Part shown: positions 22,350 through 55,725 of the stretch, one piece after another
Layout of the letters: every line of letters starts with the position of its first letter
How positions within the stretch are numbered: position 1 is the stretch's first letter
NCBI RefSeq assembly: GCF_030409055.1
Contig: NZ_CP116619.1
Location: 1,645,628 to 1,709,627 of the forward strand
Length of the DNA: 64,000 bases
Origin: Trichocoleus desertorum NBK24
Lineage (GTDB): Bacteria; Cyanobacteriota; Cyanobacteriia; FACHB-46
Direction of reading: 5' to 3'
The notes under the pieces: model-generated
Told to the model about the DNA's origin: nothing
Seen by the model: the letters and a program-made list of their open reading frames with translations, nothing else
The model's database searches: none
Made by a program: the position numbers and the translations under genes

Positions 22350-22457
22350 AAATTGCGATCGCACAACTCAATTAAACCTAGCAGTCCTGAAATAAGATCT
22401 ATAGGTGCTGATCTATCGCGGTGGTTATGCAGTGGGTTAGAACAGCACTACAGGCTT

Positions 22458-22850
22458 TTAATTGGATTTCTTTTGCTGAGTACTGAGCATGGCTTCGATC
22501 CCCTTCATATCTTCAAGAAACTGCTGCTGAGCCATCTCAGAGCTCTTCCTCCAAGCTTCAATTTCAGCTTCTATGGCAGCTAGTTCGGCTGTAGCTTTTT
22601 TGTTGCTAGCTCTCATCTCAGCAAACATTTCTCTGCTATTAAACAGCACCCATCCAAACTGCCCAATAGCCACTAACAAATAGATCCAAATATTAATAAT
22701 TACAATACTGCTGACTACTTCCAGCGATACTCCTGCAAAAAGCAAAGAAAGGATCGCAGCATTGGCACCCAGAAAAATGTATTTGGCATACTTTTTCAAG
22801 GCACGAATTACTGGTTTAAGTTCTACTAGCTGAGTGGTTGGTCGCACCAT
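22458..22850 (-). CDS. Hypothetical membrane protein with coiled coil
   Basis: Unknown 130-residue protein. Two adjacent hydrophobic segments (about residues 24-42 and 48-70) are followed by a helical, probably coiled-coil tail (EMRASNKKATAELAAIEAEIEAWRKSSEMAQQQF). A small inner-membrane protein with a cytoplasmic tail is the likely topology. It is divergent from the cyclase gene, whose start is 90 bases away. Confidence 0.55.
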   Translation of the reverse strand: MVRPTTQLVELKPVIRALKKYAKYIFLGANAAILSLLFAGVSLEVVSSIVIINIWIYLLVAIGQFGWVLFNSREMFAEMRASNKKATAELAAIEAEIEAWRKSSEMAQQQFLEDMKGIEAMLSTQQKKSN

Positions 22851-22939
22851 AAAGATTAGTGTAATTCACTATTCTCCACTACAGTGTCCAGTAGACCTGC
22901 TCCAGAAATACTGTCAAATTCCTCTGTCCTCCTAGCTCT

Positions 22940-25358: not shown

Positions 25359-25559
25359 GTGTCAGCACCCAAAGCCAGCGCTTTCAAGAATTGTAGGTCA
25401 GCCACTTAGCAGCCACTTAAATGATGAATTGCCCCCATCGATCTCAGCAACTCATCTAAGCACTTTCCTCCAAGTCAATCAGTTTCTCACAAATTTAGGT
25501 TAAGTGTCTGTTAGCAAAACACTTCTAGCAAAACGCTTCTTGGGCCGCTAGCCTGCATC

Positions 25560-26786
25560 TTATTTGACTTCGGTAACTCGCCAACTCAATTTCAAGTTGA
25601 TCCAGAAATTCCAGAACAGCACGACTGCGATCGCGATCATTTTGGCGGCATATTGATTAACGTGAAAAACGTTATACAAACCGTTAACAATCAAAGTATT
25701 AAGAACCAAACCCAATAAACAAACCACATTGAATTTCAGCAATCGTTTGGCACGTTGTCGCCATCCCTGCTGCCGACTAGAAACGTCGCTAAAAGTCCAA
25801 GCATCATTCCAGAAAAAGTTATTAATAATGGCCAACTCCACCGAGATCGTGTTGCTTGTTGTCAGTCCTAATTGCAGCTCCTCCCGCAGCAAATAGAAGA
25901 CAGACATATCGACAAACAAACCCGTTAGCCCAACAAAGCCAAACCGGATGAAGCGACCAAACGGTGACAACGCCAAACGCAGACGGCCTAGGTGACGCAA
26001 ATAATCCACATACTGCTTCCAAGTAACCTTGCTCTCGCCTCCCTGCCGCTCCTGAAATACATACCCTACTTCTGCCACTCGCCCGATGCTGCCTCGGCCC
26101 AGCACTTCAATCAAAATTTTGTAACCGACAGGACTCAGCGTTTTCCCGGCGATCGCACTACGCCGTATTAAGAAGTAGCCGCTCATAGGGTCCGAAACTC
26201 GACCCACCACACCTGGTAGAATCACTAACCCAACCAACTGGGCTCCCCGTGATAGAAAACGCCGCACCACACTCCAGCTACTAACGCCACCTCCCTCCAC
26301 ATGGCGACTCGCTGTGGCTAGATCTGCCCCCTGCTGCGTCTCTGCAATCAGCTGGAGCAAAACCTCCGGTGGATGTTGGAGATCTCCATCAATGACACCG
26401 AGCACTTCTCCTCTAGCCACTTGCCAACCTCGAATCACCGCAGTAGACAACCCCCGCTCCTGTTGCCGCCGCATTACCCGCACCTGGGGATACTCACTCA
26501 CCAGCTCTTGAGCAATCTTCCAGGTATAGTCTGGGCTATCATCATCGACCACGATCAATTCATAGTTGCCTGGTAGCACCTGATCCAGCAGCCGACTCAG
26601 CAGCTCAATCATAGCTTCGATGTTCTCACTCTCATTGAAAGTGGGAATCACCAAAGATAGATAAACCCCATGAGAGGGCGATGCTCCAGGAACCTCCAGT
26701 TGAAGAGCAGGCTCAATCTTAGACTCACTAATTGTCAAAGAGCCAGAAGGCGCTGCTAACAGGAAAAGAGATGGATCAATACTCAT
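25560..26786 (-). CDS. Dolichol-phosphate-mannose-synthase-like GT2 fused to GtrA
   Basis: A bifunctional 408-residue protein. Residues about 40-270 are a GT2 domain (SLVIPTFNESENIEAMI, VVDDDSPDYTWK with the metal motif, GVIDGDLQHPPEVL) that makes polyprenyl-phosphate sugar. Residues about 275-400 are a GtrA-like four-helix membrane domain (FIRFGFVGLTGLFVDMSVFYLL) thought to help flip the product. It follows the upstream GT39 gene by ten bases. Together with the flanking GT-C enzymes this gives donor synthesis, translocation and transfer in one operon. Confidence 0.88.
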   Translation of the reverse strand: MSIDPSLFLLAAPSGSLTISESKIEPALQLEVPGASPSHGVYLSLVIPTFNESENIEAMIELLSRLLDQVLPGNYELIVVDDDSPDYTWKIAQELVSEYPQVRVMRRQQERGLSTAVIRGWQVARGEVLGVIDGDLQHPPEVLLQLIAETQQGADLATASRHVEGGGVSSWSVVRRFLSRGAQLVGLVILPGVVGRVSDPMSGYFLIRRSAIAGKTLSPVGYKILIEVLGRGSIGRVAEVGYVFQERQGGESKVTWKQYVDYLRHLGRLRLALSPFGRFIRFGFVGLTGLFVDMSVFYLLREELQLGLTTSNTISVELAIINNFFWNDAWTFSDVSSRQQGWRQRAKRLLKFNVVCLLGLVLNTLIVNGLYNVFHVNQYAAKMIAIAVVLFWNFWINLKLSWRVTEVK

Positions 26787-26796
26787 CTAGAAAGCC

Positions 26797-28578
26797 TCAG
26801 GTTGCAGAAGAGCGGGTATAAAGACGGACAGTCAAATCATCCAAAAGCATCGTGCCTGTTAAGTGCTGAGTTTGGGTTTGGCGGTACTGTTGATCCAGCA
26901 CTTTTTGTACTTGCTGTTTTTCAGCCTCAGTGGTGCTAGGAGACCACACGGGTTTGGCGCTCTCTAACCAAAGCACGCGATCGTATAAAACTGGGATCGA
27001 GGCCAAACAGTTAGATGCTAAGCGAGACGTTGAAAATTCCTTACAGCTTTTCTCTGAAGTGCTTTGTCCCTCCAAAACCTTTTCTAGCGATAGTGCTAAA
27101 TCGCTGCTCTTTATGGCTAGTAGCGTTACAGGAGCCTCTGGAGGGACGTAGTATGCCAAACGCATTACATGTCCCCATGCCTGAGAGTTCATCACAATTA
27201 AAGTAGATGTTGGATTGCTAGCAACTGCCTGAGGTGTAGCGGTGACAATCTCTGATAGCTCATGGAACATCGAGCGCGGCCTGAGGGTAAAGTCACCAGT
27301 ACTAATACCGATGTATAAGAGCAAAACAACCGCAGCTACTGGTTGACGCCAGCTTATAGATACCTGCTCCAAGCACACTGTCAGCAGCAGTAAACATCCG
27401 GGCAGGATGACGATCATACTTCTTCCCCAACCGAAGCCCAAAGTAAACTTGCCTGCGGCAACGTCCAAACTTAAGGCTAGCAACAAGGGGAAAATTCCCA
27501 AAATCAAAGCGACTCCCAGGGGTCGCCTTTCACTCTGCTTCCAAAGCGTGGTCACTGCAACCAACAGGAAACTGATCACCACCACACCCGCAGTTGTGAT
27601 GATGTTTTGCGGCAAACTGGTAACCCAATCCCCTAAAAGTAAATGCGTCCCCAAAGTATTGGCTACGTCTCCTAAATGAGCGATCGCTGCTCCCAAAAAT
27701 CCAGATGGAGCATCAAAACGCCCTAAGTCAGCGTTCCGCAGTTGCTGTCTAGTCCCCCACAGCACCCAAGGAACAGTTAACAACACACTCAATCCAAAAC
27801 GCAGCCCATGATGCCACCATCGCCGCCAATCTAGATAAAGCACCACTACTGCCAAAGATATTACCCAGTAGGCAAAAAGATAAAACGTCATCAGTCCAGA
27901 TGTTACTGAACCGATAAATATAAGATTCCAAAAGATAGGATTGAGCTTTTGGTCTTGGCGAGGTCGAACATCGTTAGCCTCTTGATGCTCAATGCCAATG
28001 ATCTCTAGTAGAGACCAAGCACTTAAAACTGCCCAGAGCACTAAAGAACCATACATCCGCACATTTAAGGAGTGAAAAAGGTAAAAGGGGTTAGTGGCTA
28101 GAAGCGCTGCCAGGAGGAGGCCACCGCGATTTCCTAACAACACTCGCCCTAAACCATAGGAACTGGCGATCGCTCCCACACTCAGCAAAGCACCCAGGCT
28201 TCGCACGGCTGCCACTCCATTGCCAAACAAACGCAGCCACAGATGTTGAGCCAGAAAGAACAGTGGAGGATGCGGTTCTCCGCCTGCCAGACCTTTCAGG
28301 AGGTTTGCCACTGTCTTCACAATGTCCTTGACTGTCGCTTCTGGTGGCAAATCTAATAGAAGACTGTATTGGGCTAAAACAACAGGTAACTCTTTTGGAC
28401 CACGATAAGCAGTTTTTTGTCCAGTTGACAAAAGCAGTGACAAAACCTCGTCGTACCAAAACTCGCGGCTACCTAAGTTAAGCAAGCGGAGCAAAACACC
28501 GATCGCGATCGCCAGGATCAGCAGAGTTTCTAGGGAAACAACAAACTTAAATCCAAGGACTTTAAAGTGCTTATACAT
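26797..28578 (-). CDS. GT39-like membrane glycosyltransferase
   Basis: A 593-residue polytopic protein of the same kind as the 23.6-25.4 kb gene: the first helix is followed by REFWYDEVLSLLLSTGQ (the acidic GT-C motif), then EPHPPLFFLAQHLWLRLFGNG and many membrane segments, with a soluble C-terminal domain. It lies between a GT-C-like gene (13 bases upstream) and the GT2-GtrA gene (10 bases downstream), a tight operon. The sugar and acceptor are unknown. Confidence 0.8.
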   Translation of the reverse strand: MYKHFKVLGFKFVVSLETLLILAIAIGVLLRLLNLGSREFWYDEVLSLLLSTGQKTAYRGPKELPVVLAQYSLLLDLPPEATVKDIVKTVANLLKGLAGGEPHPPLFFLAQHLWLRLFGNGVAAVRSLGALLSVGAIASSYGLGRVLLGNRGGLLLAALLATNPFYLFHSLNVRMYGSLVLWAVLSAWSLLEIIGIEHQEANDVRPRQDQKLNPIFWNLIFIGSVTSGLMTFYLFAYWVISLAVVVLYLDWRRWWHHGLRFGLSVLLTVPWVLWGTRQQLRNADLGRFDAPSGFLGAAIAHLGDVANTLGTHLLLGDWVTSLPQNIITTAGVVVISFLLVAVTTLWKQSERRPLGVALILGIFPLLLALSLDVAAGKFTLGFGWGRSMIVILPGCLLLLTVCLEQVSISWRQPVAAVVLLLYIGISTGDFTLRPRSMFHELSEIVTATPQAVASNPTSTLIVMNSQAWGHVMRLAYYVPPEAPVTLLAIKSSDLALSLEKVLEGQSTSEKSCKEFSTSRLASNCLASIPVLYDRVLWLESAKPVWSPSTTEAEKQQVQKVLDQQYRQTQTQHLTGTMLLDDLTVRLYTRSSAT

Positions 28579-28591
28579 AAGCTTGGGCTAT

Positions 28592-30265
28592 CTATGCCTC
28601 ATTTCCAGCTTGGTTAGATAGAGCGTCTGAGGGTCTAGAACTCTGCATGATCGATACTTCATAGATGGGATACTTACCCAACTTACCCAAATCCGAGAAC
28701 TGTAGTGTAAATCCCTGATTTGCTTGCAGAAACTTTAAATTATCAGGGCTAGTTTGAGGGGTATTGCAATCACGATGGGGATAACAAACATACAAAAACT
28801 TTTTATATCCCTCAGACAACAGTGTTTCACCGAGACGCTTCACAGCTTCGTTATCTTCAGTTAAGAAAAAGGTTTTGTCAGGTAGAGAGGGAGAAAGGAT
28901 TTGAGCCACGTACTCATGAGACATCGCAATGATGGAGTTTGGTTGCGATCGCAATCCTGCTACTGCGGGTACGGTGAGCTGGTAACTACGAGCTAAATCG
29001 ACCGTTCCCAGAAAAGTATTGATATACAAGCCCACCAACCCAAATACAGCCAGCAGTCCCATGAATGCCAACTGCAAGTTTCGTTGATGAGTCTGCATTA
29101 ACGATTTCAGTTGCATCGCTACTAGCAAAGCAATCAGTGGAACTGTGATTAACAAGAAACGTGGTCCCCATTGTTTACCACCTGCACCGGCAGGCACAAT
29201 CAGAGGCACGGCTAGAACAAATAAAATGCTGATGAGCAAAATCACCTGCATTTTAGGAGTCAGTTTCGACTTACCTCCTAAAAAGGCCAGAAAGGTATAA
29301 ATTAGGGAAAAGAAAACAACTGGAAAATAGTAAGCAAGACTAAATAGCAACTGCTTAAGATTATCTAATGCCGTTCGCAAGCGTTGGCTCAAAGTGAATT
29401 CTTCAACGATTTGAACAGAATGAATTCCCAAAGGATGCTGATAAACCAGCAGATTGATCCCAAAAAATATTGCCACTGACAGCATCATACTAATCGCGAT
29501 CGCGATCGCCTTCTGCCCAACAAAACTAAATTCTTTTAATGGTTTGGTTTGAGTGACAGCTAGCCACACAAGCATGATCCCAACCAGGCATAAAAACTCT
29601 GGTCTAAACCATACAGATAAGCCAATCAATCCTCCACTGAAAATTGCATCTCTAGTAGAGAGACCCTTAACAGGAGGAACGAGCGCTAAAGCTAAACCGT
29701 GAAACGCTAAAGCCACAGCCAATGTATGCTCCCAATACATCGCACTATACAAGGACAAGGGAGCTGTAAAGATCAGGACGACTAGAGCGATCGAAGTCCT
29801 AATCGTACCTAGCTTCAAGCGTTGGCAGGCTGAGTAAAAACTAAACCAAAGTGCCCAAGTAGAAACTAAAGGAACGACATAGAGCCCTCTAAAGCCCAAC
29901 AGAGCATGAAAAGGAGCAGTTACCAGCGGGAAGGTAAAAGGGAAGGTAACGAAGTAACGGTTCTCTACGTTGTAGACAAAGGGAGGCCGAAAGGGATATA
30001 GCCCAATGTCCCATAGGCTTTGTATCCAGGTATTTACAGGTAGCCGCAGATCAAAGTGAAAGCTTCCAGCACTAAATTGTTGCGCCAACAAAGCTTTCAA
30101 CCCACCATCACCACTGTAAAAAACATCATTTGGCACCAAAGTTTGCAAGCACAAAGAAAATAGAATGCCAACAAAAATGACGATGAGCGGAATACTAAAT
30201 CGTGGAGCTTTTCTGGTTTCCTTGCCTAAGAATTCTTTAGCCCTAAGGTCTGATTTTGATATCAA
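28592..30265 (-). CDS. GT-C-like integral membrane protein
   Basis: First gene of the minus-strand operon, 557 residues, about eleven membrane segments. After the first helix it reads PNDVFYSGDGGLKALLAQQF, a loop with Asp residues in the position of the GT-C catalytic motif, and NVENRYFVTFPFTFPLVTAPFHALLGF. I infer a glycosyltransferase-like role from topology and context; the exact family is not certain. A soluble C-terminal part (VKRLGETLLSEGYKKFLYVCYPHRDC) follows. Confidence 0.6.
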   Translation of the reverse strand: MISKSDLRAKEFLGKETRKAPRFSIPLIVIFVGILFSLCLQTLVPNDVFYSGDGGLKALLAQQFSAGSFHFDLRLPVNTWIQSLWDIGLYPFRPPFVYNVENRYFVTFPFTFPLVTAPFHALLGFRGLYVVPLVSTWALWFSFYSACQRLKLGTIRTSIALVVLIFTAPLSLYSAMYWEHTLAVALAFHGLALALVPPVKGLSTRDAIFSGGLIGLSVWFRPEFLCLVGIMLVWLAVTQTKPLKEFSFVGQKAIAIAISMMLSVAIFFGINLLVYQHPLGIHSVQIVEEFTLSQRLRTALDNLKQLLFSLAYYFPVVFFSLIYTFLAFLGGKSKLTPKMQVILLISILFVLAVPLIVPAGAGGKQWGPRFLLITVPLIALLVAMQLKSLMQTHQRNLQLAFMGLLAVFGLVGLYINTFLGTVDLARSYQLTVPAVAGLRSQPNSIIAMSHEYVAQILSPSLPDKTFFLTEDNEAVKRLGETLLSEGYKKFLYVCYPHRDCNTPQTSPDNLKFLQANQGFTLQFSDLGKLGKYPIYEVSIMQSSRPSDALSNQAGNEA

Positions 30266-42351: not shown

Positions 42352-44001
42352 ATGCAATGGCTCACCCGACCCAATAACTTGGCTACAGGGCAACATCCCC
42401 AAGCCACCCGCACCCGTAAAACCGTTGTCAAAACAGTGCTGACTCTGGCCCTGATTACCTGGTTGTGGGCGATCGCCGTTACCTCGGACACCTTAGGGCT
42501 AGACACAGATTTGCGATTGCAAATGGCTCATGCCTGGTGGACTGGCACCGAAGAAGTGATCATCACGCCTGACATGACTCCTAAAGTCCGGGGAGATATT
42601 CGGTTCGGCGTTGTAGGCGCGGGAGGGAAACGGTATATTGCCTATGAGGTGGGGCAATCGATGTTGATGTTACCGGGAGACTGGGTTGGTACTCAACTTC
42701 ATCGAGTATTTCCAGCGATCAACTCCTTCCAGTGGCGCGCCTTAGCCATTAACTTTCTGATCTTTATTCCCCTCAATGTAGCTGCGGTTATCTCTTGCTT
42801 CTGGCTCCTCCGTTTGTTTAACTTTGACGAGCAAATCGCTGGACTGACCAGTATCACTCTGTTCCTCGCGACCACTATGCTGCACTACGCCCAAGTGCCT
42901 CAACAAAACAACCAGTTATTGCTGTTGGTAACACTGGGATACGCTGCTGCCCTCGCTTATGTGCATCAAAGGCAGCGTTCTTTTGCACTTCTGAGTGGTT
43001 TAGCGCTCGGCGGAGCCTTACTGATCCGTTCCACCAGCACTTTACATGGATTCACCGTATTACTCTTTCTGGCTGGCTGTGAGATTTACCAAAGCCGTAG
43101 CATCGCCAAAACGTTCCAAGCAGTGCTGCTATGGGTAGCAGGCTTTATCCCTTTAGCTTTAGTGAGTCGTATCCTAGATAACTGGCGGTATGGCGGCTTT
43201 TGGGCAACTGGCAAAGTCGTTGAGCAGCAACAGTTAACCACAGATCCCATGTGGAATGGGTTGCCTGACTTACCAGCAAATTACCCCTTGATCAACCATC
43301 CTTCTGTGGGCATTTTAGGAGCGCTTTTCTCTCCAGCCAAAAGCATCTTTCTTTATGATCCCCTACTCATACCTTGTCTGATTCTAGGCGTGGTGCTTTG
43401 GCGAAAGCTTCATCCCTTTCTCAAGTGGTACTTAGTCGTTGGGGGGATAAACCTAGGGTTGCATCTCTTGGCTTACAGTCGCTTTGTATTTTGGCATGGA
43501 GATGCAGCTTGGGGAGCCAGGTACCACGTCACGTCTGTCCATCTCTTGCTAATCCCTCTGCTAGCTCTTTTTGTTCAGCGCTTGCTCCACAGCAGAAGAT
43601 TAAAAGCTTGGGTGATGCGCAGTTTGATCGTTTTGGCGATCGTGATTCAACTTGCATCAGTGGCAATGCCGAGACAAATGGAGGAAACTCAGACTCTAGT
43701 TGGGGCTCCTGGCTCGCGTCTACAATTCCGTCTGGCTCAGCGCGTGATCAATATTGCCTGCTTAACCAATAGTTCTATTTCAACCCGCTGCTCTAGCGAG
43801 CTACCTCCCAAAATTAGCAATTATCTCAAGGAATACAACTCGATCACCTTTTTACCATTTAGCTTCAGCCAGCAAGCGATTAAGAACCCAGCCCTCGCTC
43901 CAATTGCCAAAGTTTTATTCGTAATTTGGGGAGTCGTTGTGGCGATCGCAGTGGTCAGCGCCCTCCTCTATTACCGCCATCTTTTTCTGCCGACTGCTTA
44001 G
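42352..44001 (+). CDS. GT-C-like integral membrane protein
   Basis: A 549-residue polytopic protein with a first helix about residues 27-44, then TSDTLGLDTDLRLQMAHAWW with acidic residues in the loop where GT-C enzymes hold their catalytic Asp. LNVAAVISCFWLLRLF, HYAQVPQQNNQLLLLVTLGYAAAL and further spans follow. I infer a glycosyltransferase-related function from topology and from the GT2 gene upstream. Its last codon lies 18 bases before the IS66 target duplication, so the gene itself is intact. Confidence 0.6.
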   Translation: MQWLTRPNNLATGQHPQATRTRKTVVKTVLTLALITWLWAIAVTSDTLGLDTDLRLQMAHAWWTGTEEVIITPDMTPKVRGDIRFGVVGAGGKRYIAYEVGQSMLMLPGDWVGTQLHRVFPAINSFQWRALAINFLIFIPLNVAAVISCFWLLRLFNFDEQIAGLTSITLFLATTMLHYAQVPQQNNQLLLLVTLGYAAALAYVHQRQRSFALLSGLALGGALLIRSTSTLHGFTVLLFLAGCEIYQSRSIAKTFQAVLLWVAGFIPLALVSRILDNWRYGGFWATGKVVEQQQLTTDPMWNGLPDLPANYPLINHPSVGILGALFSPAKSIFLYDPLLIPCLILGVVLWRKLHPFLKWYLVVGGINLGLHLLAYSRFVFWHGDAAWGARYHVTSVHLLLIPLLALFVQRLLHSRRLKAWVMRSLIVLAIVIQLASVAMPRQMEETQTLVGAPGSRLQFRLAQRVINIACLTNSSISTRCSSELPPKISNYLKEYNSITFLPFSFSQQAIKNPALAPIAKVLFVIWGVVVAIAVVSALLYYRHLFLPTA

Positions 44002-44019: not shown

Positions 44020-44027
44020 CTATCAGT
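44020..44027. repeat. IS66 target-site duplication, left copy
   Basis: CTATCAGT; the identical right copy is at 47859-47866. Collapsing the pair rebuilds the uninterrupted spacer ahead of the glycosyltransferase pseudogene. Confidence 0.95.
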
Positions 44028-45048
44028 GTAATTGCTCAACCCAGTAGCCAATCTGTCTGCTGTGAGGTAAGGGCACGGGAAATGGCATCAAAGGCAGCAA
44101 TGCCCTGACGCTTCGCAGTGTTGACAAGCGATCGCACCTGAGCGAACAGCTCCGCTCCCCAGTCCGAGCGGAATCCGTTCGTCACCTTGCGAAAGACGAC
44201 GCTCCAGCGCAACGCCTGCTCACTGGCATTATTGGTTGACGGAATTGTCTCATCCGTCAAAAACAGCAACAGATGAGCCCGAATCTTCTGATAGCGTTTG
44301 AGCAACCGCTGTCCCTCGAGCGATTTGGGTTGCAGATTCAAGATCTCCCGCAGTAAGCCGCGAAATCGAGAGCAATACTGCTGAACGGTTGAGGCAGCCA
44401 GGGTGTGTCGTCGCCGTTGCAGGGCAATGGCTTTGAGGAGCAGCCATTTCATCCGGGGCGCAAACAACTCATCACCCGCATCCATGGCATACTGACAATC
44501 GCGCAGTTGATGGGCTAGACACACTTGCCAGTCGTGCGCCGGATGGGCGGTCTGGGCACTGAATAAATCAGACACCCAAACCTGTGGTTGATGCCCCGCC
44601 ATCACGGTATCAATGACCGTTTTGCCACGACTGGGACGAATCACGTGCAAACACACCTGGTCGTTCTGAAACACCCATTCCCACTGGTTGGTCCCCTTCA
44701 CTCGTGCCCCCGTCTCATCACTGCCGACGAGACGAGCACTGCGTAAACGTTCGACAATCTTGGCCACCGGGTTTTCTAGCTGAGAGCGCACCCGTTGCAG
44801 GAGATTGGCAATCGCTCCTTCGGACAGGCTGAGACCGTAAAGCTCACTCATCAGCTGGCTCAGCCGTTGATAGCTGATGGCATGGCTGTAACGGAGATAG
44901 GTCACTAAACTCACGACACTGGTGCCAAAGGGAGACCCTGGCTCCAAACCGACTGGAACAGGCGCTTCATACGCCTGCTGACAACACTGGCAAGTCCCGC
45001 CGTAACGTTCAACCCGGGTGATGTGAGGAGTCATCGGCGGCAATTCAA

Positions 45049-45573
45049 TCTCTGCGGGTAGATTCCCCGCCCCTCGGGGCGTAAAATGCCAGGATGAGTG
45101 AGTACATTCACAAGAGTCATAACGTTACTGTTTTGTTATATCACTTGGTGTTTCCTGCAAAGTATCGACGGGCTGTGTTTGATGAACAGGTTGATGCAGT
45201 CTTACGTGAGGTCTGCCTTGAAATCGAGAAGCGTTATGAGATTAAGTTTGTCGAGATTGGGATCGACAAAGACCACGTGCATTTCCTAATTCAGTCGGTG
45301 CCGACGTACAGTGTGACGAAGTTGGTGACGATGCTCAAGAGTCTAACAGGGCGAGAGGTATTCAAACGGTGTCCAGGGGTAAAAAAGCAGCTGTGGGGTG
45401 GGGAGTTTTGGAGTGACGGTTACTTTGCGAGTACGGTGGGCAAGCATGGGGATGAAGGCATGATTGCCAGGTATGTCAAAAAGCAGGGCAAGGAGTATCT
45501 GCAACTACATCGAGATGAGCAATTAGCTCTCTTTTGAAGCTGATACCCCGCTGCTTGCGGCGGGGTAGTTCAT
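45049..45573 (+). mobile_element. IS200-type element (Y1 transposase only)
   Basis: A ~525-bp element with hairpin ends and no target duplication, as in IS200/IS605. The left-end hairpin GCCCC-TC-GGGGC is at 45069-45080. The right-end hairpin is at 45546-45565 (CCCCGCTGC-TT-GCGGCGGGG), followed by TAGTTCAT. Left flank TTCAA of the IS66 gene is the likely target motif. Exact ends are uncertain by one T, because the flanking IS66 sequence would supply it on either side. Confidence 0.82.
45094..45537 (+). CDS. tnpA: IS200 transposase TnpA (HUH, Y1)
   Basis: A 147-residue single-strand transposase. HUH motif His61-x-His63 in DKDHVHFLIQ, catalytic Tyr127 in IARYVKKQGKEY, and GEFWSDGYFASTVG typical of the family. 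The length is normal and the frame is intact, so the enzyme may be active. No tnpB accompanies it. Confidence 0.95.
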   Translation: MSEYIHKSHNVTVLLYHLVFPAKYRRAVFDEQVDAVLREVCLEIEKRYEIKFVEIGIDKDHVHFLIQSVPTYSVTKLVTMLKSLTGREVFKRCPGVKKQLWGGEFWSDGYFASTVGKHGDEGMIARYVKKQGKEYLQLHRDEQLALF

Positions 45574-47443
45574 GTGTGCCGGACATGTGGACACGCTAGG
45601 AGGTGAAAGTCCTTTCCCAACCTGATGGAGGTGAAGGGTAGTGAAGCGCAAGGGCGTTATCGCGAGGTAAGGTCTGAAGGAAGCGTGGAGCAAAGGTATG
45701 AGCCGACGAATAGAAACTGGATCAGAGGCGTGAAGGTGGGACGAGTGAGCATGAGATCACAAAGTCCATATCCATCAAGCACCGGCAACGTAAATCCAGC
45801 GGTTGTGTACCAAAAGTGTGTGAACTTACTCCGGGAGGTCTGTGGCATGTTCAAACGGACTGAGAGTAGAGCAATCTGCTCTAACCCTGACGCAGAAGTC
45901 AGCAGCGGACATAGTAGGCAAGCGATTGCTGAAGGTCCAAACAATCGAGAGTGGTGAATAAGACCTGGAACCTATGAGTAATTCTAAAAGGCAGATAACT
46001 TCGCAAGGAGCGTCTCCCGCACGAGAGCAGGTGAAGCCTGGGGCGAATGCGGGAACGGCTGATTTACTCATAGCGGGACAGCCTTCCCAAAGCCCGATGT
46101 TTGATGCAGCGTTAATGGAGGAAATTTGTCAACGAAGTAACTTGCTCCCAGCGCTGAAGCGTGTGATGCAGAATCAAGGAGCCCCTGGGGTAGACGGAAT
46201 GACCGTCGAGGAACTACCAAACTACCTCAAAGCTCACTGGCTCGACATCAAGGAACGTCTTCTTCGTGGGGTTTACAGACCACAGCCGGTTAGGAAGGTG
46301 GCAATCCCAAAACCGAATGGTACAGGAGTTCGCCAACTTTGCATTCCCACTGTATTAGATCGCCTGATTCAGCAGGCAACTTTGCAGGTTCTGCAAGCAA
46401 AGTGGGATAGAAGCTTCTCTGAACACAGCTACGGATTTCGCCCTCGGCGGTCGGCCCATCAAGCCGTAGCACAAGCGCAAAGCTACCTCAAAGCAGGGTA
46501 TGAATGGGTGGTTGACCTCGATTTGGAGAAATTCTTCGACCGAGTGAATCATGACCGCCTCTTGAGTGCCCTAAGTCAACGGATTAGCGATGTCCGAGCG
46601 CTTCAATTAATCCGAGCGTATCTGGAAGCTGGTGTTTTAGAGAATGGCTTAGTGAGCCCTCGCCACGAAGGAGCAGCCCAGGGTGGACCACTTTCACCAT
46701 TCCTGTCCAACGTCGTTTTAGATGAACTGGACAAGGAATTAGAGAGACGAGGACACCAGTTTGTGCGCTACGGGGATGATTGCAACATTTATGTGTGCAG
46801 TCAACGAGCCGGGGAACGAGTGATGGCGAGCATTAGCCGATTCATCACCCATCGCCTCAAGCTCAAGATTAATCAGAGCAAGAGCGCAGTGGCTCGCCCT
46901 CATGAGCGCAAGTTTCTGGGATTCAGCTTCACAGCAAGCGGAGGACTGCATCGACGGAAAGTGGCTAATGAAGCCATTCGGCGATTCAAGCACCGAGTGC
47001 GGCAATTGACTCGCCGGACTCGAAGTGTGAACTGGCAGGAACGGATAGCCGAGTTATCCCGATACCTGCGAGGATGGAAAGCCTACTTTGGATTTGCCGA
47101 AACCATCCGGCAATTCAAAGACCTCGATAGCTGGATTCGTCGTCGATTGCGTTGTGCATTGTGGAAACAATGGAAAACCTATCGGCGGCGCAAGTGGGAG
47201 TTGATAGCGTTAGGCGTTCCACCGTTGTTGGCTCATACCACTGCGTGGAGTAACAAAGGACCGTGGCGGATTTGCCATACACCTGGCGTTCAACTGGCGT
47301 TAAGCAACGATTACTTCAACAGACAGGGACTACCAAAACTTAGCGACTGATTTGACATTCAACTCGATTGAACCGCCTTGGTACGGACCCGTATGCCAGG
47401 TGGTGTGGGAGGGGGGAACTGCGAGGTTTCTCCCTATCCCGAT
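45574..47443 (+). mobile_element. Group IIC intron with its maturase, complete
   Basis: The 5' end begins GTGTGCC (GUGYG consensus), followed by the conserved domain I opening ACACGCTAGGAGGTGAAAG and CTGATGGAGGTGAAGGG. The reverse-transcriptase gene lies in domain IV. Domain V is the stem GAACCGCCTTGG...CCAGGTGGTG around 47368-47404. A domain VI helix GGGAGGGGGG/CTCCCTATCCC follows and the intron ends in CCCGAT. About 1,870 bp. It is inserted exactly eight bases after the IS200 right-end hairpin. Class C introns use terminator-like hairpins as targets, so the site fits the class. Confidence 0.88.
45974..47350 (+). CDS. ltrA: Group II intron reverse transcriptase/maturase (class C)
   Basis: A 458-residue multifunctional protein for intron splicing and reverse transcription. 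RT motifs: RNQGAPGVDGM-like NQGAPGVDGMTVEEL, PKPNGTGVRQLCIPTVLDRLIQQA, SYGFRPRRSAHQA, VVDLDLEKFFDRVNHDRL, PLSPFLSNVVLDELDKEL. The catalytic box reads RYGDDCNIYV, so YGDD replaces the usual YADD. The maturase (X) domain is at IRRRLRCALWKQWKTYRRRKWELIALG and GPWRICHTPGVQLALSNDYF. There is no C-terminal HNH endonuclease, as expected for class C. Similar to GsI-IIC-type enzymes. Confidence 0.95.
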   Translation: MSNSKRQITSQGASPAREQVKPGANAGTADLLIAGQPSQSPMFDAALMEEICQRSNLLPALKRVMQNQGAPGVDGMTVEELPNYLKAHWLDIKERLLRGVYRPQPVRKVAIPKPNGTGVRQLCIPTVLDRLIQQATLQVLQAKWDRSFSEHSYGFRPRRSAHQAVAQAQSYLKAGYEWVVDLDLEKFFDRVNHDRLLSALSQRISDVRALQLIRAYLEAGVLENGLVSPRHEGAAQGGPLSPFLSNVVLDELDKELERRGHQFVRYGDDCNIYVCSQRAGERVMASISRFITHRLKLKINQSKSAVARPHERKFLGFSFTASGGLHRRKVANEAIRRFKHRVRQLTRRTRSVNWQERIAELSRYLRGWKAYFGFAETIRQFKDLDSWIRRRLRCALWKQWKTYRRRKWELIALGVPPLLAHTTAWSNKGPWRICHTPGVQLALSNDYFNRQGLPKLSD

Positions 47444-48076
47444 TGCGTTCGTAAGTCCCGCTCAAGCGTTGTGTTGATAGCTCCACTTCGACCCCACAGT
47501 GGGGACAACTCTTGGCTTGGGCAACGACGACTTGATCCGGTTGTTGGCTCAATTCTCGCCCACCGTTACGGTGACTTCCCGTTTCCTCACCATTGAGGGC
47601 AGGGGACTGAGCCCTCCTCTGATTTGGCTTGAAGCCCTGAGAAGGAGGCAAACTTGAATTACGGGAGGTTTTCTTGACCCGTTTTTGCTTCAGCTTTTCG
47701 ACCTCTGAGCGCAACGTTTGCAACTCCTGCCACAGCCCTTGAATCAGGGCATCCTTTTCTGCGTGACTCAGTCCAGCGAGAGGGGGCAGTTCCTTCATGG
47801 CAAAAGTTTATCATCTTCTACCAAAGGCGTGCTTAGGTCAACCTAGTTGAGCAATTACCTATCAGTTTTTGAGTAATACATCCTAGACATGAGAATCAGA
47901 AAATCAATCCCTCCCTATGCAAGCAATTCCGCGGAGCTTGTGGGAAAAGTCCTAATTCTCTTAGCAATTGGTTTTGGTTTTTTCAGCCGATTTATCAGTG
48001 TATTTCAGTACAACACTTTCGATGTGGGATTCTCTCCAGATCAAGTGAGAGATGCCCACGTTTACATGAAGATGTG

Positions 48077-49234
48077 ACATCTTCAGGGAGCATGTCAGTT
48101 TTGCAAACCGATTAGACCATTGAGATAAGCGCAACGATGAGCTAGCACTTGTGGAACATTCTCACGCTTCCACTGCGCGCCTGATATTTGAACGCGACGG
48201 TCAATCTGCTTGATAGTCGATTCAACCGCACCCGAACCCACCGAACACAGCCCTTCCGCTTGGAAGTAGTCGTAATTCACAATGCGGTGGCGATGTTTGC
48301 GCAGATACTCACAGAAGTTCTTTGCCTGTTTTTTCTGAACGTCTTCAAACAAGAGAATGGTTGCATCCACTTTCCCCCGCCATAGTAGCGCTTCGGCTTG
48401 ATGGAGACGCTTGAGCAAACCGCCGACCTTGTAGAGATTCTCTTTGAGATGATACCAATCGAGGATCTCCCGACGACACTCTGCGGTGGCGATTTGAGCA
48501 ATCAGATTCCAAACTCCATCATGGCCATCTCCTAAACAAGTCAAGGGATTTTCTAAAGTTTGAGCATTAACCCAGCCAATCAGTTGAGCATTGTTTTGAA
48601 AGTTGGCAACCCTACCTTGTTCAGTGGCAATGGCTTTGTAGTCTCGCCATTGACAGGCCTCCCCCAACGGCGTTCGCACCCGCACCTTGCCCCCATCCAC
48701 ACCGAGTTCTGCAATGGGCTGCTGGGCCGTTGGCAACTCAAAGCTCTGATGATGCACCAAGCGTTGTTGAGTTTTAGCTGGAATGCGAATCCCGGTGAGA
48801 TAAGCTACATCACGCTCTGCCTGCTCATAGGAGACATTGGCACTTAAGCGCAGACAGCATTTCTCTAAATGGGGACTCAACTGTCGGGAGGGAGCAACTG
48901 CCAGTTTCTCTGCTTGGCCCGTGGTGAGTTCTAGCTCTCCCAGTGTACTTTTTAGCCTTCGCACTCTTCCTGCTTGCGTACCGCTAACCGCTCGGATAAA
49001 AAACACCCTAATTCGGGACTGACATGGGCTTGAATCTGCTCTCGCAGAGTCAACTCAATACCTTCGAGTGTTTTCATCGCTTCCGGGTCACTTTCGGCGT
49101 ACAGAATTTGAGCAATCGCTTCGAGATGAACTTGGAGGGCTTGGGCTTGAGCAGGAGTCATGTCAGGGGTTGCAGCAATGAGTTGCCTCTATCCTGACTG
49201 ATTTCACCGAACCTTGCAAAGGTGACCTGCTCCC
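48077..49234 (-). mobile_element. ISKra4-like insertion sequence
   Basis: A 1,158-bp element flanked by perfect 8-bp duplications AAGATGTG at 48069-48076 and 49235-49242. The near-terminal inverted repeats contain GGGAGCATGTCAG on the left and GGGAGCAGGTCA on the right, both followed by TTTGCA-type sequence. Removing the element and one duplication restores VYMKM-WQGVW in the host gene. The two transposase frames are described separately. Confidence 0.88.
48095..49161 (-). CDS. ISKra4-family transposase, two frames joined by a probable -1 frameshift
   Basis: Frame 1 (49161-48952, 69 residues, MTPAQAQALQVHLEAI) is helical. Frame 2 (49006-48095) carries the DDE core: ELGVDGGKVRV, CLGDGHDGVWNL and SVGSGAVESTIKQIDRRVQ. 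They overlap at the sequence T-TTT-TTA (minus strand, about 48998-49004), a canonical -1 slippery heptamer in register with frame 1. A frameshift would give one ~345-residue protein (CFL-IRAVSGTQAGRV). Alternatively this is a mutation. Family assignment rests on the DDE motifs and WYHLKENLYKVGGLLKRL. Confidence 0.8.
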
Positions 49235-49618
49235 AAGATGTGGCAAGGAGTTTGGCCTAGCTTAGGGCCAGCCTCCTCAATTGGTGGCTACAATATACCA
49301 CCGCTTTACTATTATTTGGTTTTTCCGTTTACTGTTTTTGGCCCCAATCCAGTTTTTCAAGCTTTACCGAATGCTCTCTTTTCCTTTTTATCAATTCCAC
49401 TCTTAATTTATTTGGTCTACCAGCTTCTAGATAACCTCAGTTCTAGCAAACGACTGTTTTTAGCAGGCTTAGCAGGTTTTTGGTATAGCAGTCTTTTCGC
49501 TGACATTTATCTGAGCACCTACCAGTGGAACCCTAGCCCTATTCCATTCTTCTTAATGAGTTTTTTACCTCACCGTTCGCGTAATCGAGCCTGACTATTC
49601 TGAATTACCAATTAGACT

Positions 49619-50855
49619 CAGTAGATCGCAAATTCTCTAGGAAAGGGGTAGGGTCAGGCTAAAAGCATTAGATCAAGCCATGACGACCTACCCATCTTCA
49701 TTATCTCCTGCTCCCGCTCTGACCGATGAAGGGACACTGGAAGCTGCCCTTGATTGTCTACTCGAGTCTGTTCCACTGAACATGGAAGGCGGATACACCC
49801 CCCAAGACCTATTCGAGATCCTGCTGCGGGCTGCCAGCCGAGGCGATAGCATCGAACACACGGCTCAACGCTTGCAAGGTACACCCAGTGGTAATGGTAT
49901 CCGCTATCACTTGGATAAGTTGGATGAGATGGCCACACTGGAGAGCCAACTCAATGCGGCTCTGCAAAGCCGAATTCCACCCAAGATTTGCAGAAGGCAG
50001 CATCGCATTGCCATCGATTTACACTTAATTCCCTACTACGGCAACCCAAGTGAGGTGGAGGCTCCCTACATCTACCGCTCTCAAGCTAAAGCTGGAACTA
50101 CCTCATTCTTCGCCTATGCCACAGTCTATGTTGTCTGTCGTCACAAACGTGTGACCCTAGGGATTCATGCAGTGCATCGTCAAGAAACCTTAGTGGCGAC
50201 CCTGACTTATTTGCTCGCGAGGTTGAGTCCGCTGCGAGTCCGAGTCAAACGGCTTTACCTGGACCGAGGGTTTTATAGTGTCCCTGTCATCCGTTGGCTG
50301 AAGGCATTGCAGATTCCCTTCCTGATGCCTGCGGTGATTCGGGGCAAAACTGGAGGAACCCGTCAACTGCTAAGGGGACGGCGCAGCTACCAGACACCCT
50401 ACACCCTCAACAGTCCCCAGTATGGTTCGGTCAGCTGTCAGATGCGGGTCATTTGTAACTATTACAAAGGGCTCAAGGGCAAGCATGGGATTCAATACAC
50501 TGTCTATGTGCTGCATCGGGTGAAGGTTGCCCTGCACCAGACCCATCGGCATTACAGAGACCGTTTTGGCATTGAAACCAGTTACAGGATCAAGAACCAG
50601 TGTCGCATCCGCACCACGAGTAAAAATCCTGTAACCCGCTTTCTGTTTGTCGCTCTAGCGTTTGTCCTAGTCAATCTTTGGGTGTATTTGCTGTGGTTCT
50701 TTATCAGTTGGACGCAACGAGGAGGACGAGTGGTTTACCGAGAACTGTTTGCCCTCAAGACAATGCTGGAATTCCTGTCCCAGGCAGTGGAGCGGCATTT
50801 TCCAGTCATCACAGCCATCTACTTACCCGCTCTGGAATGAATTTGCGATCTACTG
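49619..50855 (+). mobile_element. ISH3-family element nested in the IS1634 element
   Basis: 1,237 bp with 17-bp perfect inverted repeats CAGTAGATCGCAAATTC at 49619 and its complement ending at 50855. The 5-bp target duplication AGACT is at 49614-49618 and 50856-50860. It entered a few codons before the end of the IS1634 transposase gene. Intact ends and transposase make recent movement likely. Confidence 0.92.
49680..50840 (+). CDS. ISH3-family transposase
   Basis: A 386-residue DDE transposase. Catalytic residues are in HRIAIDLHLIPYYG (Asp), KRLYLDRGFYS (Asp) and YRDRFGIETSYRIKNQCRIRT (Glu, with the YREK-like signature of the wider IS4 group). C-terminal hydrophobic segment FVLVNLWVYLLWFFI is typical. 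ATG at 49680; the stop lies 15 bases inside the right inverted repeat boundary. The frame is complete. Confidence 0.93.
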   Translation: MTTYPSSLSPAPALTDEGTLEAALDCLLESVPLNMEGGYTPQDLFEILLRAASRGDSIEHTAQRLQGTPSGNGIRYHLDKLDEMATLESQLNAALQSRIPPKICRRQHRIAIDLHLIPYYGNPSEVEAPYIYRSQAKAGTTSFFAYATVYVVCRHKRVTLGIHAVHRQETLVATLTYLLARLSPLRVRVKRLYLDRGFYSVPVIRWLKALQIPFLMPAVIRGKTGGTRQLLRGRRSYQTPYTLNSPQYGSVSCQMRVICNYYKGLKGKHGIQYTVYVLHRVKVALHQTHRHYRDRFGIETSYRIKNQCRIRTTSKNPVTRFLFVALAFVLVNLWVYLLWFFISWTQRGGRVVYRELFALKTMLEFLSQAVERHFPVITAIYLPALE

Positions 50856-52579
50856 AGACTACTGTAAATGTCTGGAGGCAAGCCTAAAAGCCGAATAATC
50901 TCTTGTTGGAGAGCATTGAGGGGTGGCACATGACCAAAGGATTTTCCATGCACATCGATGAGGGTGACAGTAATATTGCGAAAGGCTTGTAACACCCGTT
51001 CCGCCGTTGGATGGTCGGTCGCTTGCTTGGGATTATTCGAGTTCAAGCCCACCAAGGTGGTTTGTTCGCATTGCAGTTGACGACGCACGACGAATTCAAT
51101 CAGGGTGAGTAACCGCAGCGCTAGAGACAACAAGTGAAATAGGCCTTTGACTTGGTCATCTCGTTGAACAAACAAAGGACTGATGGAAAGGGGAGCTCCT
51201 TTGAGGCGATGAAACCCGCGTTCGACGATCCATTCATCCCGATAGCTTAACACCGCATCGGGAAGGGAGAGTTGGGTGGCTGGAGCATTGGAAACATAAG
51301 CCCGCCAGCCAAATGTCCGTTCTGCTGCGGTAATGGACTCTTCCTGGCGACGGACGGCGCTGATCTGGTAGCGGACGGCTTCGCTCAGTTGCTTGGGACG
51401 ATCCGATGCCCGCCCTCGACCGACATAGCGCTCTGTCTGAGTCACGTGTTTCTCGTATTGATAATCCAGCAAGCCTTCCACCCGATGCTGGCTCAGAATG
51501 GCTTGGGCTTGTTGTTGCAGCAGGGCCTCCTCTTTGATTTGCCGTTTCCCACGACCGGGGGTGGGTGTCAGCGCGAGTAACTTTTCCGTGGCCGTCTGCA
51601 ATCGTTGTGCCAGTCCCTGTCGCTGTTGCTGGGCGAATTGAGGAGACTGAATCACGAACACCCGCTCTGACCAGGTCAACTCCGGTTGTTCATCCGACAG
51701 ACTGACTGGCCGACTCACCTCGATTCCTTGAGCCATCACCCGCTCAATCGGTTTCTGCCCTGGACTTTCCGGTTTGAGCACTTTGACCTCCATCAGTTGA
51801 GTGGGTTCGCTCAAGGCTTGAGCAACCCAGGTAGACAGCAACTGAGGAACCTGCCCAGTGAAGGCCAATGGACAGAGATAGTAATGACCTTGCGTGTGCA
51901 AGTAACGACGAGTGGACAAGGCGGCCATTTTGCAATCCCCCACAAACAAGAGTCCGGGTTGGTTCAGGGTTTGCTGCACCTCAGCAATGGCCGGAATGTA
52001 GAGTCCGTCATCGGCTGTTTCCCCAGACACCACTTGAGTGACCAACGGCAGACCCAGTGGGTCTAGCACCCCTAGCATCAGCTTGACTTGGGGCAAGCTC
52101 GGGTCAGCTTTGCTATGACCAAACTGGAATAATCGTTCCTCGGTACTCGAGTGATAGCCACTGACGGTCGTGGCGTCCAATCGCACCCGCTGAGGGTGTA
52201 ACGGGTAGACCCGCAGCAGTTGCCGATTCAATCCTTGTTCAATCGCCCTCCAGGTCTCCTCCCGGCTCAATCGTCGTAGCAAGATACTTAAGCGGTCATC
52301 GCTAAAGTCGGTCTCTCGCAAGTCCAGGTTGCACACTTGCTCAATGCTATAACGCCGTTGTGCCACCCATTCTTGCACCCAGACTTTACGGTGGTCTCCT
52401 TGAGACACGATGTAGCACAACCAGATGGTGGCCACCCAGCCTAAATCGAGTCCTTCCTGTTTCCAGTGCCGGGGCAAGTGTTCATTCAGAAGTCCGGGTA
52501 ATCCCATTTGCATCATGACATGCAGCAGTAGCACGACGTCGTCAATCCGTTCCGAGGCCAAGCTGATTGCGTCTGTCAT
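50819..52579 (-). CDS. IS1634-family transposase with altered C-terminus
   Basis: A 586-residue DDE transposase. Key segments: VRLDATTVSGYHSS (Asp), LLFVGDCKMAAL (Asp) and YRDEWIVERGFHRLKGAPLSISPLF (Glu). The ISH3 insertion replaced the native tail: without it the protein would end SSLIGNSE and stop at 49595. Now it reads SSLSRSQIHSRAGK, encoded by the ISH3 end, so the two transposase genes overlap tail to tail by 22 bases. Only about five native residues are lost, so activity could survive. Confidence 0.92.
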   Translation of the reverse strand: MTDAISLASERIDDVVLLLHVMMQMGLPGLLNEHLPRHWKQEGLDLGWVATIWLCYIVSQGDHRKVWVQEWVAQRRYSIEQVCNLDLRETDFSDDRLSILLRRLSREETWRAIEQGLNRQLLRVYPLHPQRVRLDATTVSGYHSSTEERLFQFGHSKADPSLPQVKLMLGVLDPLGLPLVTQVVSGETADDGLYIPAIAEVQQTLNQPGLLFVGDCKMAALSTRRYLHTQGHYYLCPLAFTGQVPQLLSTWVAQALSEPTQLMEVKVLKPESPGQKPIERVMAQGIEVSRPVSLSDEQPELTWSERVFVIQSPQFAQQQRQGLAQRLQTATEKLLALTPTPGRGKRQIKEEALLQQQAQAILSQHRVEGLLDYQYEKHVTQTERYVGRGRASDRPKQLSEAVRYQISAVRRQEESITAAERTFGWRAYVSNAPATQLSLPDAVLSYRDEWIVERGFHRLKGAPLSISPLFVQRDDQVKGLFHLLSLALRLLTLIEFVVRRQLQCEQTTLVGLNSNNPKQATDHPTAERVLQAFRNITVTLIDVHGKSFGHVPPLNALQQEIIRLLGLPPDIYSSLSRSQIHSRAGK

Positions 52580-53122
52580 TGTCCAGCGATAACTCTGAAT
52601 TCTATGCTGGATGATGCTTTAACCGATCTCTGCTAATTTAATCTTTTCTGCTGCTTATTACGCGAACGGTGAGTTTTACTGCTCTACAAATTTCAATTGG
52701 AAACCCATTTACCTCTCAAAGTTCAAGCAGTTAGCTGGGTTGCCTATGGTGTGGTGTTGGCTATTTTAGCTAGCCTGCACTCTAGCACCATGTTTGTGAT
52801 GCCAATTGTGTTTGTTGCTAGTTCAATTTTATTTATTGCCAAAAACCGGAAGCGCTGGCAGCAGTGTTGTCTTCCTACCTATTCTATTTTGACAGCCTTA
52901 CTTTGTCTGATTCCTTATTGGAAAGGGGAAGCTAGCCGTGGATGGGAGAATACTAAAGAAATTTTGCTAACGATTTTCAATTCCAACCGAGAAGTACAAG
53001 GTTATACACCTTGGGGAAAAGTTGGTCGGATCTTATTCAATTATTCAGAGTTAGGACAACAAGCCTACTTTATTAACTCTTCTTGGCTATTTACAGCCGT
53101 TGCCATGATATTTTCATTCTTA

Positions 53123-54249
53123 TACCAATTCAATTTAAGGCTGCATAGAATAGGGCTTCTAAAATGAAATCATAACTGGTCAATGAAGCGACTTGTTCGG
53201 GAAGGAGTTCGCCTAAAATCTGGCTCAATCGCTTCTGCATCTGTGCGATCGTTGTGAAGTGCTCGCCCTCTAGCTGAGATTTGAGATACTGCCACAATCG
53301 TTCTGCTGGATTCAACTCTGGTGAGTGAGCAGGTTGCAGTACCGGAATCAGATTCTCTGCCCGACGCAAACTCTGAGCTTGATGCGCTTGCGCTCGGTCT
53401 AATTGAATCAGTGCCCGATCCTCGCCAAGTTCCGTTGAAAGTGCATCTAGGAAGGATTGAAACTGCTCAGAGTTGAGCTGAGTATACTCCTGCTCAAAGT
53501 GCCATCCACTCAGCGGTTCAACGACTCCATAGACCCAGAAGTTATCTCGCTTCCACGCTACTTTCGCCATCGGCTTCACTCCACAAGCAGTGATGACTCG
53601 CCCTGTCTCCGTTTTCAGTCCCAAGCGCATCTCATCTTGGCACAAATACCGCAACCGTTTGCCTTGACCAAACAGGTTCTGCAAAGTTAGAAGGGCAAGG
53701 GGGATGTTTTTTTAAACAAGGTGACTGCTTGCGGATCTTGCTGAATGCTTTGAGGACGAGGCACCTTCAATTTTGCTTTCAGCCGATAACGCACGGTTTT
53801 ATGCACCGTTTTGTATTTCACGGCTTTGCCCAATTCGCTTCGCACCCACTGTTCGACCTCCCCATAACTTTTGAATCCCTCCGGTTGTGCCAAACGCTCT
53901 TGCAGTTGCCGCAGCATCTCATCATCCATTTCTGGTGGACGACCCGGTGACTTCTTGAGGCGCAGCAACTCACTGATACCTCCTTGGCGATACTGTTGCA
54001 GCCAGTGAGTAATGGTTGAAGGATTGCGGCCCAAGCGTTGAGCAAGTTCTTGATGTTGCTGCACTTGAGCACTCTTGAGCCACCACAGCATTTGTAGTTT
54101 CTCTTTTTGGCTCACTCTTCGGGCTTGGTGCAAGCTCTTTTCGAGATACTCCACACTCTCTTGAATTTCAACGTGAAAGGGGCGGGCCATGATTGCTCAG
54201 AGTCAGTTAATTCTTCTTCTTAATTCTATGCACCGTTAAATTGAATTAG
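53123..54249 (-). mobile_element. IS630-family element
   Basis: Terminal inverted repeats CCAATTCAATTTAAGGCTGC on the left and CTAATTCAATTTAACGGTGC on the right, both followed by ATAGAA. The IS630 target is TA. Taking TA at 53121-53122 and 54250-54251 as the duplication restores the host gene in frame (FSFL-LVG). Taking the TA at 53123-53124 instead leaves it out of frame. The left end is therefore uncertain by two bases. Confidence 0.85.
53130..54190 (-). CDS. IS630-family transposase in two frames
   Basis: Frame 1 (54190-53687, 167 residues) holds the helix-turn-helix DNA-binding part (AQRLGRNPSTITHWLQQYRQGG). Frame 2 (53684-53130, 184 residues) holds the DDE catalytic part: QDEMRLGLKT (Asp), ALIQLDRAQAHQA (Asp), SPELNPAERLWQYLK (Glu). 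Switching to the -1 frame at a run of seven A (minus strand, 53707-53713) gives FKKN-IPLALLTLQNLFGQGKRL, a natural join. IS630 elements often use such slippery A runs; a mutation cannot be excluded. Confidence 0.85.
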
Positions 54250-54408
54250 TATTAGTAGGTATAGTTTTATCAATTGGCATCAATCTCAATATGGACTACA
54301 CCTACTTAGCCGGGAAATATGGTCAAAATAGAGTTATTTCAACTCAAGAAATGGTTGAAGTACTCAATCAACTCCCTGCCAACTCAACTATCTGCGATCG
54401 CAACCTTA

Positions 54409-55320
54409 GAGGGTGTTTGAAAAGTCGGATAAACAGTAGAAAAGCTCACTCAGTGTAAGCTGCGAATACGAAAGAACACAGCACCGAGTGAGCTAGATGG
54501 GTAAATCCTATCCCAGTAATCTGACCCGTGCCGAATACGAATTTCTCAGTGACCTGATTCCAGAAGCAAAACCCGGTGGTCGCCCACGCAGCATCGAGAT
54601 GTGGGCAGTTCTCAATGCCATCTTCTACGTCCTAGTCGAGGGGTGTCGTTGGCGAGCGTTGCCGGGAGACTTTCCGGCATGGCAGACGGTGTATACCTAT
54701 TTTCGCAACTGGCGCAAGGACGGCACTTGGATTGTGATTCATGACCGCTTACGTGAGTGGACGCGCATCGAAGTGGATCGCCAGCCCAGTCCCTCTGAAG
54801 CGATCCTCGACTCGCAAAGTGTCAAAACGGCGGCAGGGGTGAGCGAACAGGTGGGATTTGACAGTGGCAAAGTGATCAAGGGGCGCAAGCGGTTTATCAG
54901 TGTCGATACCTTGGGACTGGTGCTGCGTGTGTTCGTGACTGCTGCCAGTGTGGGAGAACGAGCAGGGGGCAAACGGGTACTCAAGCGGGTCAAACGGATG
55001 AACAAAGTGTGTTTCGTCTAACCACCATTTGGGTCGATGGTGGCTTTGATGGCGCACCGTTCCTAATGTGGGTGATGGACGTTTGCCGTTGGATTATCCA
55101 AGTGGTGCTGCGACCTGAACAAACCAAGGGGTTCGTGCTGCTCAAAAAGCGATGGGTGGTGGAGCGGACATTCGGTTGGTTGATGCACTGTCGTCGTCTA
55201 GTGCGTGACTATGAGTTATTGCCAGAGACCTCAGAGACATTAATCTATCTGGCAATGATTCGGATAATGGTCAAGCGATTGGCGTAAACTTTGACTCGTT
55301 ACAACTTTTTAAACACCCTC
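54409..55320 (+). mobile_element. IS5-family element
   Basis: 912 bp. Terminal inverted repeats GAGGGTGTTTGAAAAGT (54409) and, at the right end, the complement of GAGGGTGTTTAAAAAGT (ending 55320), one mismatch. 3-bp duplication TTA at 54406-54408 and 55321-55323. Precise removal rejoins the host gene as DRNL-RGWRK. Confidence 0.9.
54497..55287 (+). CDS. IS5-family transposase, frameshifted
   Basis: Frame 1 (54497-55021): [47 protein letters not shown] and the first catalytic Asp in [11 protein letters not shown]. Frame 2 (from 55009 to 55287): [14 protein letters not shown] (second Asp) and [24 protein letters not shown] (Glu). A -1 shift near 55010-55014 (GTGTGTTTCG) joins them as KVCFRLTTIW. 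The site is not a classical slippery heptamer, so a true mutation that inactivates the copy is as likely as programmed frameshifting. Confidence 0.85.
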
Positions 55321-55725
55321 TTAGAGGATGGAGAAAAGTTAACAATCCCTACAGCTACATTGACACGTATATAACCAAAAAAAGATTTACAGCGATTCTC
55401 GGATTGGTAAGCCACAGGGAAACGCGAACAGTAAACTTTTAAGCTGGTAGCTGTGTGGCTTACTCAAACGGCAACCGCTGTAATATTACCGCACAATGCC
55501 AACCAGGGAATTACGCACTGCATAATAAATTTTATTATCAGTTCCTAGAAGATAACTTGTGGCATGCTCTCAAAGTTTCTAAAACTGGGTCTTTCAAAGA
55601 ACCTGCAACTCTGCTCTGGGAAACGCCAACTACTTTTGCTTATCAGCTTCAGTAATCCCTGACCTAATTTGAGATTTTAGGCACACCAATTTCACAAGTG
55701 CAGTCGCACAATCTAAAATCGGGGG

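Follow-up and report, generated by a model that had tools for sequence, protein, structure and literature searches.

Five independent insertions (ISKra4, IS1634 carrying a nested ISH3, IS630, IS5 and a 91-bp MITE-like element) break a single gene in the 64-kb stretch of cyanobacterial DNA analysed here, which we call the window and which spans positions 1645628-1709627 of a genome consisting of a single 5.46-Mb contig. We consider it probable that a gene of GT-C type was turned into a pseudogene only recently, in a host undergoing IS expansion, and that selection was relaxed after the first hit and the AT-rich gene took up further elements. That several independent element families had struck one gene was already claimed in a preliminary description of the window, and it is supported by the intact genes of two sister species and by the collinearity of the junctions. 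The case is one of ordinary gene decay during a recent transposon burst and does not reveal a new system. It provides a clean, dated snapshot of an IS burst erasing a gene, with five element families, readable junctions and two intact sisters, and with selection relaxed so recently that substitutions lag behind insertions. Such a newly dead gene offers a measure of IS insertion against substitution.

The broken gene and its intact counterparts

When the five pieces 47889-48076, 49243-49568, 52680-53122, 54252-54408 and 55324-55655 were joined and translated, the single frame of 482 codons given in the preliminary description was reproduced, with one TAA. The frame stood, but 482 codons as the length of the gene did not, since 31 codons of the MITE and one duplicated TTA at the IS630 site were counted in; without them, the residual gene comprises 449 codons and is stop-free. 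Neither is the gene fully reconstructable, as had been supposed: 237 bp (79 codons) are missing at the IS630 site and 449 of 528 codons are left. The TAA (55440-55442) had been read as decay of the gene. We rejected point decay because this codon lies inside the MITE-like insertion, which is flanked by TA.

All gene fragments lie on the forward strand. Fragment 1 (47889-48076; codons 1-62 and part of 63) ends with the target copy AAGATGTG at 48069-48076, matches itself at 98% over query residues 1-63 and has 89% DNA identity to the intact gene of the sister genome G001. Fragments 2 (49243-49568), 3 (52680-53122) and 4 (54255-54408), which end with the target copies TTTTAC, TTA and TTA, respectively, were recognized by own-genome match and G001 alignment. 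The same holds for fragment 5b (55483-55655), which runs to the native stop, while fragment 5a (55324-55389), ending with the target copy TA, was placed by the G001 alignment. When the genome itself was searched for paralogues or a further copy, only the gene's own pieces were returned. Upstream lies an intact gene of 549 aa (42352-44001, forward strand), which matches PMT_2 weakly; in G001, about 50 bp separate it from the counterpart of the broken gene.

Two same-genus genomes of sister species, G001 and G002 (drafts of about 90 contigs each), carry the gene uninterrupted, with about 90% and 77% identity to the window pieces, respectively. Intact homologues thus exist, but of 528 codons instead of the anticipated 480 or so residues, 79 of these codons being missing from the window copy. 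Collinearity with G001 breaks exactly at the insertion points, where the overlaps in the DNA alignment are approximately of duplication size. The G001 alignment spans all joins and that of G002 those which it reaches, with the 79 codons absent at the IS630 join. The window as a whole is collinear with G001, the breaks being the insertions and a few short gaps elsewhere. A segment of about 590 bp at 22336-22928, which contains a membrane ORF of 130 aa, corresponds to only about 56 bp in G001.

Orthologues from more distant cyanobacteria share 38-58% identity with the G001 gene, and nine of ten are open across the matched length. The frame-broken one was not counted as a parallel loss, as the title of its contig indicates about 4x coverage and an insertion is absent.

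The inserted elements and their junctions

The element families named in the preliminary description (ISKra4, IS1634 with ISH3 inside, IS630 and IS5) were borne out by matching transposase models for all five, as were the perfect target duplications at all inserts. Each insert has a duplication of its own, namely AAGATGTG for ISKra4, TTTTAC for IS1634, TTA for both IS630 and IS5, TA for the MITE and AGACT for the nested ISH3.

The ISKra4-family element (48086-49234, reverse strand; NF033572, 9.9e-84) is 1149 bp long, has the ends GGGAGC...CTCCC and occurs in 4 copies in the genome; its right target copy AAGATGTG lies at 49235-49242. At its left junction, nine additional bases, ACATCTTCA (48077-48085), repeat the neighbouring target sequence TGAAGATGT in inverted orientation and are without counterpart in the other ISKra4 copies or in the empty site of G001. 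At this junction (48069-48085), the nine bases have the look of filler copied from a template during insertion.

The IS1634-family element (49569-52673, reverse strand; NF033559, 1.2e-91; transposase at 50819-52579, reverse strand) has its right target copy TTTTAC at 52674-52679, and no second copy of it was found in the genome by DNA search. It is interrupted by the ISH3-family element (49619-50855, forward strand; NF033541, 5.8e-68), with AGACT at 49614-49618 and 50856-50860; 5-bp duplications were present at all nine other ISH3 copies checked. The IS5-family element (54409-55320, forward strand; NF033580, IS5_3 model) is 912 bp long, with the right copy of TTA at 55321-55323, and its transposase is split by a 1-nt deletion relative to copies of 913 bp. 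As for the MITE-like element (55390-55480; ends CAGCGATT...CCGCTG; TA at 55388-55389 and 55481-55482), an inverted repeat at 55387-55483 marks it as the fifth insertion. Three copies occur in the genome, two besides the one in the broken gene, and the corresponding G001 site is empty.

The IS630-family element (53123-54251, reverse strand; NF033545, 2.5e-31; ends TACCAATTC...GAATTAGTA) is flanked by TTA at 53120-53122 and 54252-54254 and is represented by 7 near-identical copies. Its duplication had been described as TA. We rejected this in favour of TNA on three grounds: all seven copies fit a TNA duplication, mostly in CTNAG-like sites (TTA at the broken gene); the empty site of the sister reads CTTAG; and removal of the element with one TTA at another copy restored a frame of 387 aa. 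The transposase model NF033545, terminal inverted repeats and fixed target specificity are common to this element and the IS630 family (ISY100, PMC2170065), whereas the 3-bp TNA of the seven copies departs from the family's usual TA. The 237 bp held by G001 and G002 (in frame, 15% of the gene) are absent exactly at this site, between CTTAGT and TCTAGT. The deletion probably arose between these short repeats at, or beside, the IS630 insertion.

The intact gene of 549 aa is separated from the broken one by an IS66-family element (44028-47858, reverse strand; duplication CTATCAGT at 44020-44027 and 47859-47866). We considered it as the first, silencing hit and dropped it, as both of its halves are 100% identical to other copies in the genome and show no surplus of differences. 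The element is interrupted by an IS200-type element (45050-45573, forward strand; TnpA at 45094-45537; PF01797, 2e-37), inserted 3' of TTCAAT without duplication, and by a group II intron with a GTGTG start (45574-47444, forward strand; RT/maturase at 45974-47350; RF02001/RF01998 of Rfam, PF00078, PF08388), which abuts the right end of IS200. Together, IS200 (524 bp) and the intron (about 1870 bp) form a 2395-bp unit with identical boundaries in several copies: three sites in this genome (45050-47444 of the window and the loci L062 and L063), at 100%, and one in G002, at 93%. IS200 without the intron is present in G001 and in many cyanobacteria. Joint movement of both parts is possible, which would make the unit a group II counterpart of IStrons; repeated independent homing of the intron beside the IS200 hairpin is equally likely. 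With IStrons, which combine an IS with a group I intron (PMC4227781), the unit shares an IS200/IS605-type TnpA element joined to a self-splicing intron at the same boundaries across copies. It differs in that its intron lies outside the right end of IS200 and belongs to group II, Rfam giving group II domains and none of group I.

Age and causes of the insertions

Comparison of the broken gene with that of G001 gave a dN of 0.040 and a dS of 0.337 (dN/dS 0.119); the corresponding ratios were 0.153 for the intact upstream gene and 0.073 and 0.067 for two downstream genes. Single changes, counted for each lineage at those codons on which the remaining two genomes agree, were nonsynonymous in 3 cases and synonymous in 20 for the window lineage, against 5 and 29, respectively, for G001. 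A Poisson bound at the codon level limits the neutral period to at most about 10-15% of the branch. Lineage-specific residue changes numbered 17 in the window and 9 in G001, a mild excess which is not significant (hand chi-square about 2.5). No significant rise of dN/dS after inactivation was detected, inactivation being too recent. These values show that purifying selection acted on the gene for nearly its whole history since the split from G001. The inserted elements carry 0 to 6 private differences per copy (about 0.5% at most, save for one change in the 91-bp MITE), the highest numbers being those of ISKra4 and IS5 and the nested ISH3 having none. Since purifying selection is still visible and private differences are few, the gene died recently, and the recent insertion suggested in the preliminary description is upheld by both lines of evidence.

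One of the insertions, whichever it was, would have ended the function of the gene. Later ones would then have been neutral and would have accumulated quickly, because several families were active and the gene is AT-rich (39-39.7% G+C against 49.4% in the window, which places it in the lowest 1% of local windows). Under a uniform model of neutral insertion, 0.0002 to 0.2 slots with five hits in 1.44 kb are expected, depending on the assumed IS number and neutral fraction. The five hits exceed this expectation and are unusually dense; therefore, relaxed selection alone may be insufficient without a target or regional bias. AT-richness may add a target preference for elements using TNA and TA.

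Carried further, the same observations would make the gene an insertion hotspot, to which several families would be drawn, irrespective of selection, by its AT-richness, the abundance of CTNAG/TA sites or a silent state. Besides the low G+C content and the excess over the uniform expectation, this agrees with the TNA targets of IS630 and IS5, with the TA target of the MITE and with the gaps relative to G001 elsewhere in the 64 kb, which are short and, among those examined, never an IS. We regard it as unlikely all the same, for orthologues elsewhere are uninterrupted, the equally AT-rich one of G001 included, and other IS copies lie in flanks that are only mildly AT-rich, with family averages of 43-49% G+C. 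Besides relaxed selection, positive selection had been offered as a cause of the insertions, the advantage lying in loss of the glycosyltransferase and hence of an envelope sugar (phage resistance, for example). Of the two, it is relaxation of selection once a first hit had occurred that fits. The recent death of the gene from a constrained state would suit selection for loss, as would the GT-C fold class, which modifies envelope or lipid-linked sugars. However, such selection acts on the first hit only and cannot explain four further ones, which were neutral on a dead allele; the gene is whole in the two sister species, as are most of its distant orthologues, so that there is no parallel loss. 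Nothing was found in support of phage resistance, and the flanks, as far as they were read, showed no phage-related context. Selection for loss thus appears quite improbable as the driver.

Cyanobacteria are often polyploid. Together with the assembly of the genome into a single contig, this could suggest an assembly artefact or merged alleles of a polyploid culture; but exact target duplications, a separate one for each junction, and pieces that keep their order and their collinearity with G001 across all boundaries make either hardly credible. Five insertions per 1.4 kb at about 0.5% neutral substitution could also reflect a true multi-family hotspot, or repeated knock-outs on different polyploid chromosome copies under selection for loss, merged by recombination. 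To this pair of scenarios we give little credence.

The IS expansion, which together with relaxed selection after a first hit makes up the reading we prefer, is apparent throughout the genome. Two transposase families alone accounted for 53 (DDE_Tnp_1) and 32 matches, many of the IS matches being nearly identical to each other, and a census of these two families and a few further elements, to be read as a lower bound, reached at least 89 matches. In this partial census, 21 neighbour pairs lay within 3 kb of each other, against 4.3 expected at random. The 53 DDE_Tnp_1 matches compare with 19 and 21 in the two sister genomes, figures which are probably underestimates as repeats are lost from these drafts. 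Other genes broken by single IS copies could be rejoined into open frames of 701, 655, 417, 387 and 385 aa. A second, intergenic IS nest with five IS matches in about 4.5 kb occurs at 2121631-2126040 of the contig, flanked by rpsB/tsf-like (ribosomal-protein) genes and a glycosyltransferase-like gene.

A recent IS expansion has been described in another cyanobacterium, Acaryochloris marina CCMEE 5410, where 400 generations of evolution in the laboratory were reportedly dominated by one element, ISAm1, with some insertions being beneficial (PMC8763236). Common to both are several IS families, near-identical copies, an excess over sisters, frameshifted transposases and genes that were hit. In contrast to A. 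marina, five hits are stacked in one gene here, with no sign of benefit.

The putative gene product

The gene had been called a glycosyltransferase. Models of Pfam and NCBIfam matched neither the broken gene nor nine of its orthologues, and a search of PDB by sequence for the function of the gene was without result; only fold comparison was informative. The predicted structure of the Microseira orthologue (pLDDT 73, pTM 0.76) matched STT3, AglB, AftA, DPY19 and ArnT in PDB, with the top fold matches being GT-C at probability 1.00 and with sequence identity of only 9-14% in the top alignments. The original designation is thus favoured by the fold of a predicted model but not by family models, and from the fold matches it is likely that the broken gene coded for a membrane glycosyltransferase of GT-C type. 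D42, Q43 and D46, which are invariant in nine orthologues, are candidates for the acidic motif that GT-C glycosyltransferases carry in their first large loop, with a putative catalytic role. The predicted fold, a multi-helix membrane part with a mixed domain at the C terminus, is shared with known GT-C glycosyltransferases (STT3/AglB, ArnT, AftA, DPY19), from which the gene differs in having no match among curated family models and, in the window copy, by the lack of the 79-codon stretch.

Elsewhere in the window (23574-30265, reverse strand), three ORFs of 557-594 aa are located beside an ORF of 408 aa that by eye resembles GT2/DPM1-GtrA. One of the three matches PMT_2 of Pfam; the other two, without a Pfam match, look PMT/GT-C-like by eye.
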